A program made the translations under genes and the position numbers. Shown piece by piece: positions 477 to 5,085 of a stretch of DNA of 39,712 nucleotides. Origin of the DNA: Fidelibacterota bacterium (lineage in GTDB: Bacteria > Fidelibacterota > UBA8477 > JABMPR01); contig JABMOS010000112.1 of NCBI GenBank assembly GCA_013203185.1, positions 1-39,712 on the forward strand. Reading direction: 5' to 3'. A model generated the notes under the pieces. It had not been told where the DNA came from, ran no database searches, and worked only from the letters and a program-made list of their open reading frames with translations. Every line of letters begins with the position of its first letter. The first letter of the stretch is position 1.

Positions 477-1766
477 TTAGGTCACTTCAGCAGACTGCTT
501 CCTTGGTTTGAGAAATGGCAGTAATATGAGGGGTATAAATGCTATCCAACCATCCATAAACAGAACTTTTGCGTAGCCATACAGATCGGCGTGTTTACCC
601 TGCCATAGGCTTGAATAAGAATAAACAAAATTATGGAGAGCCATGTAGCCGGTAAATTGCGTAGCTGCCACTGCAGGGCTGGTCAGGCCCATGAAAACTG
701 CCGTAGAAGTTCCCTGCACCAATCCACTGGCAAAACTGTAGGCGATTGACACATAAAAAAACATTTCGATGGTGACACCAGCCGTTCCATCAATTCCTGT
801 AAACTGTCGAGCCAGAAAAAAGGTGGGGATGGTCGTCAGGACATACCAGGCACCTAGAGCTTTGCGGTGTCCAACTCTATCAGATATCCATCCTCCCAGG
901 ACACAACCTGTCGCCGCGAAAATCGTACCCAGCATGGTCAGTTTTGCGATTTGATTTTCATCCATTCCAAGATCCACCTGGAGGGCACTTCCCAGAACCA
1001 GACCCAAAGCCAATGCTCCGAAGGGCAACAGTGAGAAGATCACTCCGGCAATGGGACCTGTCCCCGATTTAAAGAATCCCTGGAAGAGCTCCTTGAAGAA
1101 ATGTTTAAGCGTCTTGATTATTTCTCCAGTCACACTTCCTTGAGAAACAACCTTGTCAACGACTTCAGATACTGGCTCCTGTATCCGTAGTGTCACAAAT
1201 ACCAAAATCAGGATTAACATGAGCAAAACAAATGGGAATGAAAACGCAAACCCAAACTTACCAGCGATTAGCAATGCCCCACTGCCACCGATGGCCTGTC
1301 CCAGATAGGATGAACCAAACATGAATCCATTGGCAATGCCTCGTTCGTGCTCTGGTAAAACTTTAATGGCCAGGGCATCGATGGCCACATCTTGAGTTGC
1401 TGCAAAAATATTGTGAATGACAATGAGAGTTGTCAACAATTGGATATTGGTGGAATAGTCAAAGAAAACCACTATTCCCAGTGTACCTATCATTGCTGCC
1501 TGCGCTCCGGCAATCCAGGTTCGTTTGGATCCAAATCGTTTAAATTCTACCAGGTCTACCAGGGGTGCCCAGGCCCATTTCAATCCCCAGGGAGCATAAA
1601 GGGAGGCTGTGAAGAGACCGATCTCAGTCAGACCAACACCACTCATCCGCAGATGAGTTGCCAGTGCAATGGCACTGAATCCAAAGGGAATTCCTTCGGA
1701 TAGATAGAGGAGAGAAAATGCCAGCAGTCTGCCATTTTTTGTCTTAAGCGCATTTTTAGACAGCAT
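477..1766 (-). CDS. AmpG-type MFS permease
   Basis: Inner-membrane major facilitator protein of about 429 residues with roughly 12 hydrophobic segments. Features typical of the AmpG / SLC33-like branch are visible: an N-terminal L-Y-L-S-E-G-I-P-F-G-F, a W-A-P-L-V-D segment, and the A-T-Q-D-V-A-I-D-A-L-A motif in the first half. AmpG imports anhydromuropeptides, but relatives carry other cargo and no cell-wall recycling gene is adjacent, so the substrate is open. I place the start at the ATG at 1766 because AAGGA lies five bases upstream; an upstream GTG at 1787 has no such site. The gene runs divergently from the cysteine leader transcript at 1973. Confidence 0.85.
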   Translation of the reverse strand: MLSKNALKTKNGRLLAFSLLYLSEGIPFGFSAIALATHLRMSGVGLTEIGLFTASLYAPWGLKWAWAPLVDLVEFKRFGSKRTWIAGAQAAMIGTLGIVVFFDYSTNIQLLTTLIVIHNIFAATQDVAIDALAIKVLPEHERGIANGFMFGSSYLGQAIGGSGALLIAGKFGFAFSFPFVLLMLILILVFVTLRIQEPVSEVVDKVVSQGSVTGEIIKTLKHFFKELFQGFFKSGTGPIAGVIFSLLPFGALALGLVLGSALQVDLGMDENQIAKLTMLGTIFAATGCVLGGWISDRVGHRKALGAWYVLTTIPTFFLARQFTGIDGTAGVTIEMFFYVSIAYSFASGLVQGTSTAVFMGLTSPAVAATQFTGYMALHNFVYSYSSLWQGKHADLYGYAKVLFMDGWIAFIPLILLPFLKPRKQSAEVT

Positions 1767-1935: not shown

Positions 1936-1965
1936 TTGCATTCTCTCGCTAATAGCACCTATACT
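1936..1965 (+). promoter_or_regulatory. Sigma-70-like promoter of the cysteine leader
   Basis: TTGCAT (1936-1941) and TATACT (1960-1965) are separated by 18 bases. The expected transcription start falls at about 1972-1973, on the ATG of the leader peptide, so the transcript may be leaderless. This agrees with the lack of a Shine-Dalgarno sequence before that ATG. Confidence 0.6.
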
Positions 1966-1972
1966 TACACCG

Positions 1973-2053
1973 ATGAGAATTAGCACCAATATATATGCCC
2001 TTAATGCGTGTTGCTGTTGTCACATGGAAATGTGTGGAATAACCGGCATGTAG
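1973..2053 (+). CDS. Poly-cysteine leader peptide (attenuator uORF)
   Basis: A 26-residue reading frame whose codons 13-16 are TGT TGC TGT TGT (2009-2020), four cysteines in a row, with a fifth Cys codon at 2033. It stops at TAG 2051-2053, 26 bases before an intrinsic terminator and 133 bases before a cysteine-synthase-like gene. This is the layout of an amino-acid attenuator: ribosomes short of Cys-tRNA would stall at 2009-2020, and otherwise run to the stop and cover 2037-2046. The ATG has no ribosome binding site but sits at the predicted transcription start. The frame stays open upstream to 1805, but that part contains the promoter and is probably not translated. Inferred from sequence only. 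Confidence 0.72.
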   Translation: MRISTNIYALNACCCCHMEMCGITGM

Positions 2054-2097
2054 CTAATCGTACAACATAATTAGTTTTTAAAAGCCCCCGGTTATTC
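2037..2097 (+). promoter_or_regulatory. Cysteine attenuator: antiterminator pairing
   Basis: GAATAACCGG (2037-2046) is perfectly complementary over 10 bases to CCGGTTATTC (2088-2097). The second segment takes up the inner 5' arm and loop of the terminator hairpin, so the two folds exclude each other; the remaining terminator stem could only form as a pseudoknot. A small hairpin CACAT/ATGTG (2021-2025 with 2030-2034) sits directly after the Cys codons and would be melted by a ribosome stalled there. Confidence 0.7.
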
Positions 2098-2116
2098 ATC
2101 GGGGGCTTTTTTTTAC
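2080..2116 (+). terminator. Attenuator terminator before the cysteine synthase gene
   Basis: AAAAGCCCCCG (2080-2090) pairs with CGGGGGCTTTT (2100-2110), a perfect 11-bp stem with a 9-base loop, followed by more T residues. It lies in the 5' leader of the sulfur operon, which makes it a regulated terminator rather than an end-of-gene signal. Confidence 0.85.
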
Positions 2117-2186
2117 CACGATCAACAAGCTTCAGACCCAGGTAGATCATCTACAGGAATCTGAATCGAAACGAAGGATACAAAAG

Positions 2187-3185
2187 ATGGAAGTAGCAGA
2201 TCTTAAAATAAGAACCAATCAGAGAAAACGTGTCTACGAGAGTATCGCTGATATGATTGGAAATATTGACAACCCAACACCTGTGGTGATGCTCAATAAA
2301 AGAGCGAACCCTCATCCAAATTTTAACCTGGGGATTAAGCTGGAGCGTCACAATGTTTTCGGGTCAATTAAAGACAGGGTGGCTTTAAAGATGATTCAAA
2401 ATTCTCATATTCTGACTGATCAAACTATTCTGGAAGCTTCATCAGGGAACACCGCCCTGGCACTGGCTGCACTGGGAAATGCTATGGGTCTACCTGTGGA
2501 GATTGCCATTCCTGAAAGAGCGCCCAGTGATAAAAAAGACATACTGAAAGTGCTGGGTGTCTCAGAGCTGTGGGAAGCTGATGATCAACTCTGTCCTTTG
2601 TATCCAAACGAAGGTGCCCGAGGCCTGGCCAAGGGATTGGCTGAAAGCCCTGCCTATGATGGGAAGTATGTGTATTTAAATCAATACGAGAATGATCTTA
2701 ACGTTCAAGCCCATTATGAATCTACTGGACCAGAAATCTGGAATCAATTTGATGGAAATATTGATGTGTTTTTTGCCGGTTTTGGAACAGGTGCTACCAT
2801 ATCTGGTGTTGGAAAATTCCTCAAGGAAAAGAATCCCAACATCAAAATTATCGGTGTGGAACCATCCACGGCGAATCACTCCATTTCAGGTTTAAAACGA
2901 ATTAGTGATTTGGCCGATGAGTACATACCTGAAATTTTAGATATGTCCTTGGTGGATGAGGTACTTGAGGTCAGTGATGATGATGCTTTTCAGACTGGCA
3001 TTATGCTGGCAAGGCAAGCGGGATTATTGGTTGGCCCCAGCTCTGGTGCCATTATCTGGGCAGCCCTTGAGTATGGAAAAAGCCATCCTGGAATTGGGGT
3101 TGCCATCTCCCCAGATGATGCCTTTAAATACACCCGCTTGTATACTGACTATTTAGACAAGCAGGCTGGACAGAATACGCCCTAG
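2187..3185 (+). CDS. Cysteine synthase-like PLP enzyme
   Basis: A 332-residue fold-type II PLP enzyme of the CysK/CysM/cystathionine beta-synthase family. The PLP lysine is probably K62 in V-F-G-S-I-K-D-R, the A-S-S-G-N-T-A loop (84-90) binds substrate carboxylate, and the phosphate-binding loop is G-F-G-T-G-A-T-I-S-G (198-207). Such enzymes make cysteine (or a related thiol amino acid) from O-acetyl- or O-phosphoserine and sulfide, or from a sulfur-carrier protein. GAAGGA eight bases upstream fixes the start. It is the first gene of a run with DsrE2-like, TusA and DUF2892 genes, behind a poly-Cys leader and terminator, which supports a role in cysteine supply. The exact acceptor and sulfur donor cannot be read from the sequence. 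Confidence 0.88.
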   Translation: MEVADLKIRTNQRKRVYESIADMIGNIDNPTPVVMLNKRANPHPNFNLGIKLERHNVFGSIKDRVALKMIQNSHILTDQTILEASSGNTALALAALGNAMGLPVEIAIPERAPSDKKDILKVLGVSELWEADDQLCPLYPNEGARGLAKGLAESPAYDGKYVYLNQYENDLNVQAHYESTGPEIWNQFDGNIDVFFAGFGTGATISGVGKFLKEKNPNIKIIGVEPSTANHSISGLKRISDLADEYIPEILDMSLVDEVLEVSDDDAFQTGIMLARQAGLLVGPSSGAIIWAALEYGKSHPGIGVAISPDDAFKYTRLYTDYLDKQAGQNTP

Positions 3186-3238
3186 GACGAGGGCATGCTA
3201 ACCACATCTCATATACACAAATTACAAAGGATATCACT

Positions 3239-3754
3239 GTGAATACATCTAAACGAAAACGTCTGGCTCTCATTGCTTCAAAAGGCACCTTGGATTGGGC
3301 CTACCCCCCTTTCATTCTCGCGTCCACAGCAGCAGCAATGAACATGGAGGTGGGAATATTTTTCACCTTCTATGGTCTACCTCTGCTCAATAAGAAGATT
3401 GATGCAAAGGTCGCTCCCCAGACCAACCCGGCTATGCCCATGAAAATGCCTTTTGGATCTGAGAATTTCCAAAATATGGAATGGCCCATACCCAATATTC
3501 TGGCAAACAATATTCCTGGCTACGAAACCATGGCTACCTCCTTCATGAAAAAATCCTTTGCCAAAAAGGGAGTCGCCAGCATTGAACAATTACGGGAAAT
3601 CTGTGTCGAATCAGGTGTCCGGTTGATCGGATGCCAGATGACCATGTCAGTCTTTGGCTTTGAACCTGACCAGTTTATTGAGGGTGTTGAATTTGGCGGG
3701 GCAGCAACATTTTTGGAATTTGCTGCTGATGCTGATATCTCACTCTTTATCTAA
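3239..3754 (+). CDS. DsrE/DsrF/DrsH-like (DsrE2) sulfur-transfer protein
   Basis: A 171-residue protein starting at GTG (AAAGG nine bases upstream). The N-terminal L-A-L-I-A-S-K-G-T-L-D strand, the middle Met/Pro-rich stretch (about 60-90) and the late G-C-Q-M-T-M-S-V-F-G motif match the DsrE2 branch of the DsrE-like family. C132 in that motif is the expected persulfide-carrying residue. Family members pass sulfane sulfur to or from TusA and rhodanese partners. It lies 53 bases after the cysteine-synthase-like gene and 41 bases before tusA, so a shared relay is likely. It might be membrane-associated through hydrophobic segments at about 23-50. Confidence 0.85.
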   Translation: MNTSKRKRLALIASKGTLDWAYPPFILASTAAAMNMEVGIFFTFYGLPLLNKKIDAKVAPQTNPAMPMKMPFGSENFQNMEWPIPNILANNIPGYETMATSFMKKSFAKKGVASIEQLREICVESGVRLIGCQMTMSVFGFEPDQFIEGVEFGGAATFLEFAADADISLFI

Positions 3755-3795
3755 CCACACCACTTTTAAACAACGTTATTTATAAAGGAATAGAG

Positions 3796-4032
3796 ATGAA
3801 TACAATTACATATGATCAAGAGTTGGACTGCAGGGGATTGAACTGTCCGTTACCAATTTTGAAGACCAACCAGACCATTTCCAAAATGGATGTGGGTCAA
3901 ATTTTAAAGGTTGAAGCCAGTGATCCTGGCTCAGTAAGCGATATGCTGGCCTGGAGCAAGCAAACAGAGAATGAACTGATTACCCATCATGTAAATGGAG
4001 AGCTTTATACCTACTATATTAAAAAAAGCTAG
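3796..4032 (+). CDS. tusA: Sulfur carrier protein TusA
   Basis: A 78-residue TusA/SirA-like protein. The hallmark L-D-C-R-G-L-N-C-P-L-P is present: C17 in the C-P-x-P motif is the persulfide-carrying cysteine. The following helix and C-terminal beta strands match the usual length of 75-82 residues. TusA hands sulfur from desulfurases or rhodaneses to tRNA thiolation, molybdopterin synthesis or DsrE-type proteins; with a DsrE2-like gene next door it is most likely part of that exchange. AAAGGAA lies upstream of the ATG. The gene belongs to the same transcription unit as the cysteine-synthase-like gene. Confidence 0.93.
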   Translation: MNTITYDQELDCRGLNCPLPILKTNQTISKMDVGQILKVEASDPGSVSDMLAWSKQTENELITHHVNGELYTYYIKKS

Positions 4033-4161: not shown

Positions 4162-4416
4162 ATGTTGAAAAATGTGGGCTGGATTGACAGGGGCTTCAGG
4201 TTTTTTTGGGCGGTGTTTTTAATATGGTTTGGACTCTTCTTTCTAGAGGGAATCCATGGGAATATTTTGGGCATACTGGTCTCAGTGACTGCCCTGCTTC
4301 CCCTCTATATGGTGATAACTCAATCCTGTTTTGTTTTCCGATGGTTCAACATTCACTCACTTTCAAAGAAAGAAATTCTGAGGTTTGGAGATTCTGAAAG
4401 CACTGGGAAAAATTAA
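4162..4416 (+). CDS. DUF2892 (YgaP-like) small membrane protein
   Basis: An 84-residue protein with two hydrophobic helices (about 13-32 and 39-58) and the N-terminal N-V-G-x-x-D-R-x-x-R pattern of the DUF2892 / YgaP transmembrane family. The start at 4162 is set by a full anti-16S match, GGAGGTGATT at 4149-4158; in-frame TTG and GTG codons further upstream lie inside that site. In YgaP this domain anchors a rhodanese to the inner membrane; here it stands alone after tusA and may anchor the sulfur relay. A 129-base gap separates it from tusA, so it could have its own promoter. Its stop overlaps the convergent gene by four bases. Confidence 0.8.
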   Translation: MLKNVGWIDRGFRFFWAVFLIWFGLFFLEGIHGNILGILVSVTALLPLYMVITQSCFVFRWFNIHSLSKKEILRFGDSESTGKN

Positions 4417-5054: not shown

Positions 5055-5085
5055 AAAAAAGGCCTCCAGGTGGAGGCCTTTTTAA
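5052..5085 (-). terminator. Bidirectional intrinsic terminator
   Basis: GGCCTCC (5061-5067) pairs with GGAGGCC (5072-5078), with A residues on the left and T residues on the right, so it can work on both strands. On the minus strand it follows the small ORF that ends at 5097. Confidence 0.7.

Follow-up and report, generated by a model that had tools for sequence, protein, structure and literature searches.

A predicted cysteine-responsive transcription attenuator in Fidelibacterota and its likeness to arginine leaders before argG

In the his, trp and leu attenuators of enterobacteria, a leader peptide with cognate codons is combined with mutually exclusive antiterminator and terminator structures. 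The Fidelibacterota leader described here shares both traits, but it would sense cysteine, its start codon lies next to the promoter and no common 1:2 protector hairpin was found in the Cys leaders. Leader frames have been predicted in mycobacteria (PMC1262725), leaderless poly-Cys short ORFs have been reported there (Canestrari et al., 2020, as cited in PMC13236596 and PMC9031893) and cysteine leaders are noted in mycobacteria and other actinobacteria (PMC1262725; PMC13236596). As these sources present them, the mycobacterial leaders have in common with ours a poly-Cys frame, a leaderless start (predicted in our case), a position before cysteine biosynthesis genes and the speed of the ribosome on the Cys codons as the sensor. 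Compared by description only, they are translational or of a proposed Rho type and have no conserved terminator, whereas the Fidelibacterota leader, from another phylum, has a predicted intrinsic terminator and an explicit antiterminator. The uORFC-8-2 motif of Rhodobacterales also has tandem Cys codons, an intrinsic terminator and a proposed stalling on uncharged tRNA-Cys; as described, it differs in lying before cysS in alphaproteobacteria, with its Cys codons inside the first stem (PMC8632094). Our leader, which stands before a synthase-like gene and has its arm 3' of the Cys run, falls outside that motif. In Streptomyces lividans, LeuL2, TrpL1 and IlvL are likewise leaderless leader frames followed by a hairpin and a U run, but by their description concern other amino acids and an actinobacterium (PMC8079986). 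Clues to leader-peptide attenuation before amino-acid operons come from Flavobacterium psychrophilum, which has the FCB superphylum and the type of operon in common with Fidelibacterota; the accessible part of that paper names no Cys or Arg leaders and gives no structures (PMC9723704).

Fidelibacterota is a phylum of the FCB group, and a sequence-only reading of this locus named poly-Cys leaders as known from mycobacteria and as not known to be described in an FCB-type lineage with the TusA/DsrE2 genes. The mycobacterial precedent stands (PMC1262725), cysteine leaders are also described before cysS in Rhodobacterales (PMC8632094), and none was found for Fidelibacterota: our literature search, with most subscription papers outside its scope, returned neither a Cys or Arg leader in this phylum nor a poly-Arg argG attenuator. 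What looks new is the arm–stop–terminator unit common to Cys and Arg leaders in Fidelibacterota. The locus would be a complete, minimal cysteine attenuator, as predicted, outside the groups for which our search met cysteine leaders and in a phylum known mostly from metagenomes.

The stretch of DNA analysed (the window; contig C103, 39,712 nucleotides) belongs to a genome of 3.07 Mb that is 82% complete (G000). We consider it highly probable that positions 1936–2114 form a ribosome-mediated transcription attenuator: a leader peptide, likely leaderless, would gauge charged cysteinyl-tRNA through its Cys codons and govern a cysteine-synthase-like gene, probably together with DsrE2 and TusA genes (Table 1). 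The promoter, the 26-codon frame and the CCCC run of the sequence-only reading are all present in the window sequence where it had placed them. A consensus scanner called neither the promoter nor the terminator in the window; what supports the two is folding together with conservation in four of four genomes. Rfam gave no match over the gathering score, either in the window or in 20 leader loci of the Cys, Arg and His types.

Table 1. Coordinates of predicted features in the window and at related loci.
Feature	Locus	Position	Strand	Details
Promoter	Window	1936-1965	+	TTGCAT 1936-1941, 18-nt spacer, TATACT 1960-1965; read from sequence
Leader peptide frame	Window	1973-2053	+	MRISTNIYALNACCCCHMEMCGITGM; ATG 1973, 26 codons, stop TAG 2051-2053; translation predicted
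Regulatory Cys codons (four)	Window	2009-2020	+	TGT TGC TGT TGT; last one starts 19 nt 5' of arm
Fifth Cys codon	Window	2033-2035	+	4 nt 5' of arm; present in G015 too
Antiterminator 5' arm	Window	2037-2046	+	GAATAACCGG; overlaps last leader codons
Antiterminator 3' arm	Window	2088-2097	+	CCGGTTATTC; overlaps terminator upper stem (2088-2092) and loop
Intrinsic terminator (predicted)	Window	2080-2114	+	Stem 2080-2092/2098-2110, T tract 2107-2114; folding; conserved 4/4
Cysteine-synthase-like PLP enzyme	Window	2187-3185	+	PALP; CysK/CysM-like; below NCBIfam cut-offs
DsrE2 sulfur carrier	Window	3239-3754	+	NF047629, 216.2 bits (cut-off 210)
TusA-like sulfur carrier	Window	3796-4032	+	PF01206
Small YgaP-like transmembrane protein	Window	4162-4416	+	PF11127
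Poly-Arg leader	L077 (G000:C130:38647-38802)	1519-1596		Before argG, with terminator
Poly-Arg leaders	L067, L076, L078, L125, L127, L140, L149, L153, L155, L166, L168, L169, L173, L074			Before argG, with terminators
His-rich leaders	L085-L091 (order, 7 loci)			Before hisG
His-rich leaders	L069, L070 (two genomes, another family)			Before hisG
Synthase after PAPS-reductase gene	L055	1264-2469, 2485-3210		C-terminal TusA domain
Synthase after PAPS-reductase gene	L058 (also L056, L057)	1270-1485, 2485-3231		L058 with TusA neighbour

A profile of five homologues, run against 245 genomes of the phylum at an E value of 1e-60 or better, found the cysteine-synthase-like gene in nine, four of them within a genus of 19 genomes (g1). 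All four of these genus loci (G000, that is the window, G015, G017 and G003) carry a Cys leader; the Cys loci with readable context number four, from one genus, while most of the 18 close proteins (71–93% identity) have no readable context. Each leader has TATACT preceded by a TTG(C/T) hexamer and an 18-nt spacer, an ATG 4–8 nt later, three to five Cys codons in frame, then the arm (10 nt), the stop codon and a strong predicted terminator. In all four the ATG follows the −10 box at this short distance (7 nt in the window), which predicts an mRNA that is leaderless, or very nearly so. The stop lies 4 nt past the arm in four of four, and one Cys codon starts 19 nt before the arm in four of four, despite 15 extra nucleotides in the frame of G017; the shared distance is less striking than it looks, because with the stop fixed in-frame codons fall only at every third distance. 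The peptides of G015, G017 and G003 (MMTKYTINSAACHCTAMMCGVAGM, MPNLIKHTMTNCCAMQMCAERRSSVTGV and MMKNTKMHMKMSSCQCCTDKKDVTGK; 24, 28 and 26 codons) and of the window differ in sequence, and what is kept is the Cys codons (in clusters CCCC, CHC, CC and CQCC), the stop, and the arm together with its TG/AG residues. A pattern scan of the genus gave 12 matches in nine of the 19 genomes, four of them the Cys leaders, and a reversed control pattern gave six. Cys-containing frames upstream in ten other loci were dismissed as chance; most have GTG or TTG starts or lie within genes.

Cysteine makes up 0.44% of the 9324 residues in the 22 window ORFs of at least 200 amino acids. The leaders have 5, 3, 3 and 3 in-frame Cys codons, with p values of 0.04, 0.31, 0.34 and 0.12 when the same short frame is shuffled by dinucleotides; taken singly, leader by leader, the Cys counts are not strongly above these shuffles, and in G017 another frame has four Cys codons against three in the leader frame. 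This weak enrichment gives some room to the view that an ordinary terminator precedes the synthase gene and that the frame and the pairing arose by chance, as does the frequency of short frames before terminators (28 candidates in the window). We regard that view as very improbable: only four of the 28 candidates have a run of at least three identical residues, two of these being the Cys-leader locus in two frames, and order and spacing are identical in four of four genomes, with covariation. The strength of the Cys-leader case is this recurrence and spacing. Another frame over the Cys run, beside the same terminator, reads Leu-Leu-Leu from a GTG at 2008 (VLLLSHGNVWNNRHVANRTT, window 2008–2070), and leucine might on that account be the amino acid sensed; the other three loci have not kept a Leu run there, the gene is cysteine-synthase-like and the promoter-adjacent ATG would be disregarded, which makes leucine sensing scarcely credible.

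Folding of the terminator region gave 13 pairs at −21.1 kcal/mol (z = −4.46), and none of 200 shuffles was equally stable. The terminator thus lies at 2080–2110 as the sequence-only reading had it, with a stem longer than the 11 bp that it gave. Its 10-bp antiterminator holds in full: all ten pairs between the two arms are Watson–Crick, and the 3' arm takes up part of the terminator stem and loop. When the 23-nt leader end of G000 was shuffled 1000 times, ten Watson–Crick pairs occurred in none of the shuffles and ten pairs including G-U in two. The corresponding p values for Watson–Crick pairs (with G-U in brackets) were 0.237 (0.007) in G015, 0.000 (0.053) in G017 and 0.032 (0.020) in G003, so that the per-locus test is strong in G000 and mixed or weaker in the other three. 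The same reading had proposed aligning relatives in search of covariation between 2037–2046 and 2088–2097 and of kept Cys codons; the pairing covaries and the Cys codons are retained in all four gene-bearing members of the genus. In the alignment, which holds four Cys sequences only, 97.4% of 39 cells are paired and three of ten pairs are changed on both sides; slid structures pair at 20.5–50%, and shuffles reach the observed pairing and two-sided-change values in 8 and 16 of 500, respectively. The firmest two-sided change is the third pair (A-T, G-C, G-C, G-T). The other two are the outermost pairs of the helix and hinge on how the sequences are aligned beside a gap or an unpaired cell.

The conserved terminator bears on where control is exerted. 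Mycobacterial poly-Cys leaders, which are reported without a conserved terminator (PMC1262725) and described as acting on translation (PMC9031893), suggest control mainly at the translation of the gene or through Rho, with the terminator secondary. For the Fidelibacterota leader this is distinctly unlikely, since four of four loci keep a strong predicted terminator along with a covarying antiterminator, and the T tract in the window is separated from the start of the synthase gene by 72 nt.

Under transcription attenuation, synthesis would begin at or beside the leader ATG. With plentiful cysteine, a ribosome would reach the stop at 2051 and cover 2037–2046, leaving the terminator at 2080–2110 to form. 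With scarce cysteine, it would stall on the Cys run, whose last codon starts 19 nt before the arm; the arm would stay free and capture 2088–2097 before 2098–2110 is transcribed, and RNA polymerase would read into the gene. Amino-acid attenuation for cysteine is what the sequence-only reading had proposed, and the arm, the stop spacing, the terminator and the covarying pairing in four of four loci argue for it. Stepwise folding was modelled with a ribosome covering 13 nt from the first base of the regulatory codon. When this ribosome sat on the last regulatory codon located 16 nt or more 5' of the arm, and the RNA ended 8 nt ahead of the T tract, the four Cys leaders showed pairing of the arm with its partner at 0.81–1.00; when it sat on the stop, arm pairing was 0.00 and the terminator reached 0.99–1.00 once its 3' arm had emerged. 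In the equilibrium folds of all four Cys leaders, the terminator prevails as soon as its 3' arm has been made, even with a ribosome stalled, and the antiterminator stretch of the window folds at −14.7 kcal/mol against −21.1 kcal/mol for the terminator. The switch would therefore have to work kinetically, by order of synthesis, because the finished terminator is the more stable of the two. In G000 and G015, the last Cys codon is only 4 nt before the arm, and a stall there would mask it. When the RNA was folded with no ribosome and cut off 12 nt ahead of the T tract, upstream pairing of the arm was 0.20, 0.67, 0.46 and 0.80 (G000, G015, G017 and G003). No common 1:2 protector hairpin was found, and a leader that is not translated would therefore be likely to allow at least partial readthrough. 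Ribosome-free antitermination was 1.00 in G000, 0.84 in G015 and 0.79 in G017; G003, where an upstream fold hides the arm, is the exception at 0.00.

A covariance model built from the four Cys leaders and searched over the 245 genomes of the phylum returned 17 matches: the four training loci, four at E values of 1.4e-6 to 5.2e-4 and nine at 0.007–0.045. The four strong non-training matches are all leaders with RRR or RRRR before argG (G015, G006, G000 and G003). The nine weak ones comprise two His leaders before hisG, one Arg leader before argG (G126) and six non-leaders, rejected as ends of genes that carry ordinary terminators. Relaxing the search within the order brought back the same four plus four and then nothing below 0.02; no leader was seen in its seven further matches. 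The genus Arg leaders have an Arg codon starting 19 nt before the arm in four of four (with the arm of Arg_G003 set by another motif), and in three of four the frame ends GTGV-stop 4 nt past the arm. A cognate codon thus stands 19 nt before the arm in all eight Cys and Arg leaders of the genus, and seven of the eight have the arm–stop unit RCCGG N RWG TRR. In the shuffle test of the pairing, Arg_G003, Arg_G126 and the two His leaders included did not reach significance.

Across the phylum, argG occurs in 64 of the 245 genomes, at 65 places. Scanning 61 upstream regions, one of them only 83 nt long, gave 14 with an RRR frame and a terminator behind it; the scan left out G126, whose Arg leader was found separately, and G013, G056 and G135, where the contig ends. 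The candidate poly-Arg leaders before argG are spread over four Fidelibacterota families (f1, f10, f11 and f31). Five more argG regions have a terminator near the gene, with RR-containing frames in G223 and G143, Lys-rich frames in G103 and G104 and none recognised in G235. The Lys-rich short frames (L176 in G103 and L171 in G104, both AT-rich genomes), found by eye, lie before the terminator and are not Arg-rich. Leader Arg codons also report arginine supply, as proposed for the argG leaders, in rbfL of Staphylococcus aureus (PMC13009471) and in the speF leader of Salmonella (PMC6386406). As described, rbfL differs in acting on the translation of a biofilm regulator through two rare Arg codons (PMC13009471), and neither rbfL (PMC13009471) nor the speF leader (PMC6386406) precedes argG, unlike the Fidelibacterota Arg leaders.

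His leaders extend the series. The order has hisG in seven of 23 genomes, and all seven loci have a leader frame of at least three His codons, five of them with a run of at least three; the hisG terminator region is longer and laid out differently, with terminators in the three loci examined by fold scan. For leucine, the 1.5 kb before leuA-type genes in the order was coding, and Leu-run frames there occurred only inside genes, with no fitting terminator. A scan for terminators with short ORFs covered 74.4 kb of biosynthetic clusters (G000, G006 and G003); it picked up the Arg and His leaders already known there and no Leu leader. The trpE model matched only partial, below-cut-off proteins, in 18 of the 23 order genomes. 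Within genus g1, the Cys-leader synthase occurs in 4 of 19 genomes, argG in 5, leuA over the cut-off in 5 and hisG in 7, in small overlapping sets; most members may be auxotrophic, although several of the genomes are incomplete.

The leader element is one of a set of predicted amino-acid leaders in Fidelibacterota, with Arg and His alongside Cys, and the codons of these candidate leaders follow the downstream pathway, as ribosome-mediated attenuation predicts. We read the Cys codons as reporting cysteine supply because of this match (Cys, Arg and His), which is our strongest argument. It also bears on the possibility that the Cys-rich frame is there for its product, a small thiol or metal-binding peptide with a function, or is a metal- or oxidant-sensing leader, and not a counter of charged tRNA-Cys. 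Copper-responsive Cys uORFs exemplify a metal-sensing leader, the clusters listed above could bind metal, and DsrE2 and TusA are sulfur carriers. Nevertheless, apart from the Cys codons and the arm-encoded residues the peptides have little in common, what is kept is the pairing and the stop spacing, and a near-identical unit occurs with Arg codons before argG, as do His-rich leaders before hisG; we therefore judge a peptide function or metal sensing to be unlikely.

The near-identical arm–stop–terminator unit with Arg codons before argG behaves, therefore, like a cassette in which the codon run sets the amino acid. In whole-leader alignments, Cys against Arg beats all 300 shuffles in G000 and G015 and gives p = 0.013 in G003; the coding parts alone do not clearly exceed shuffles (0.068, 0.018 and 0.114), and neither do the coding parts of the Cys leaders among themselves (0.078–0.22). 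Since the likeness sits in the arm–stop–terminator unit, it does not demonstrate common ancestry of the Cys and Arg leaders. Our proposal of a modular cassette (promoter-adjacent start, codon run, fixed arm–stop unit and terminator) is tentative, and we lean somewhat against it as a whole: the sensed amino acid would be exchangeable, the Cys and Arg versions would share ancestry, with CGY and TGY one transition apart, and the poly-Arg argG attenuators would add a new class to the arginine attenuators of bacteria. The shared unit suggests that attenuators can be retargeted through codon changes.

The gene behind the window leader is predicted to be cysteine-synthase-like and is assigned to neither CysK nor CysM: its best score, with TIGR01136, is 240.3 bits against a cut-off of 344.15, and its best-scoring solved relative is an O-acetylserine sulfhydrylase (1ve1). 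The YgaP-like gene is possibly in an operon with it. Downstream, G015 keeps DsrE2 and TusA; in the 1.5 kb or so read there, their place is taken by a glutathione-peroxidase gene in G017 and by an EamA transporter in G003. A Cys leader before a cysteine-synthase-like gene, as first proposed, is borne out; DsrE2 and TusA do not belong to the unit that defines it.

Five other homologues in the phylum (G124, G074, G075, G125 and G217) have no Cys leader. The gene in G124 follows hisI (PRA-CH) in a his gene cluster, with upstream sequence identical to that of L034, where a 65%-identical synthase gene (2538–4008) directly follows hisI, also in a his gene cluster and without a Cys leader. In the other four, the gene follows a PAPS-reductase gene (recognised by eye each time, with PF01507 as confirmation for G075 and G217), and the Cys-containing frames upstream in these loci were discarded as ends of that gene. 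No Cys frame was found upstream of three relatives at 34–35% identity or of the CysK-like loci (38–42%) of genus members G002 and G004 (L028 and L031). Relatives that keep the operon but lack the Cys run or the pairing had been named as evidence that would count against cysteine attenuation: the genus keeps the leader in four of four, and the distant homologues, in other operons, are without it. The leader therefore belongs to the genus version of the gene and not to the enzyme family.

In the PAPS-reductase-linked loci, the enzyme of G075 carries a fused TusA domain (29.5 bits; cut-off 28.6) and that of G217 has one next to it (37.2 bits), which suggests that the synthase-like enzyme may take sulfur from a TusA-type carrier. 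The leader would mark as cysteine-responsive a synthase-like gene that is fused or linked to TusA-type carriers in relatives. It would do so in a genus in which a clear CysE-like match was seen in only one of 19 genomes, several of them incomplete: none passed the cut-off of the CysE search, all 19 gave weak matches, and the one strong match (G002, 2.5e-49) was followed by the next at 1.1e-9. Further along the window, a hairpin with a T run (GGCCTCCAGGTGGAGGCC, 5061–5083) lies between genes and is apparently an ordinary terminator.
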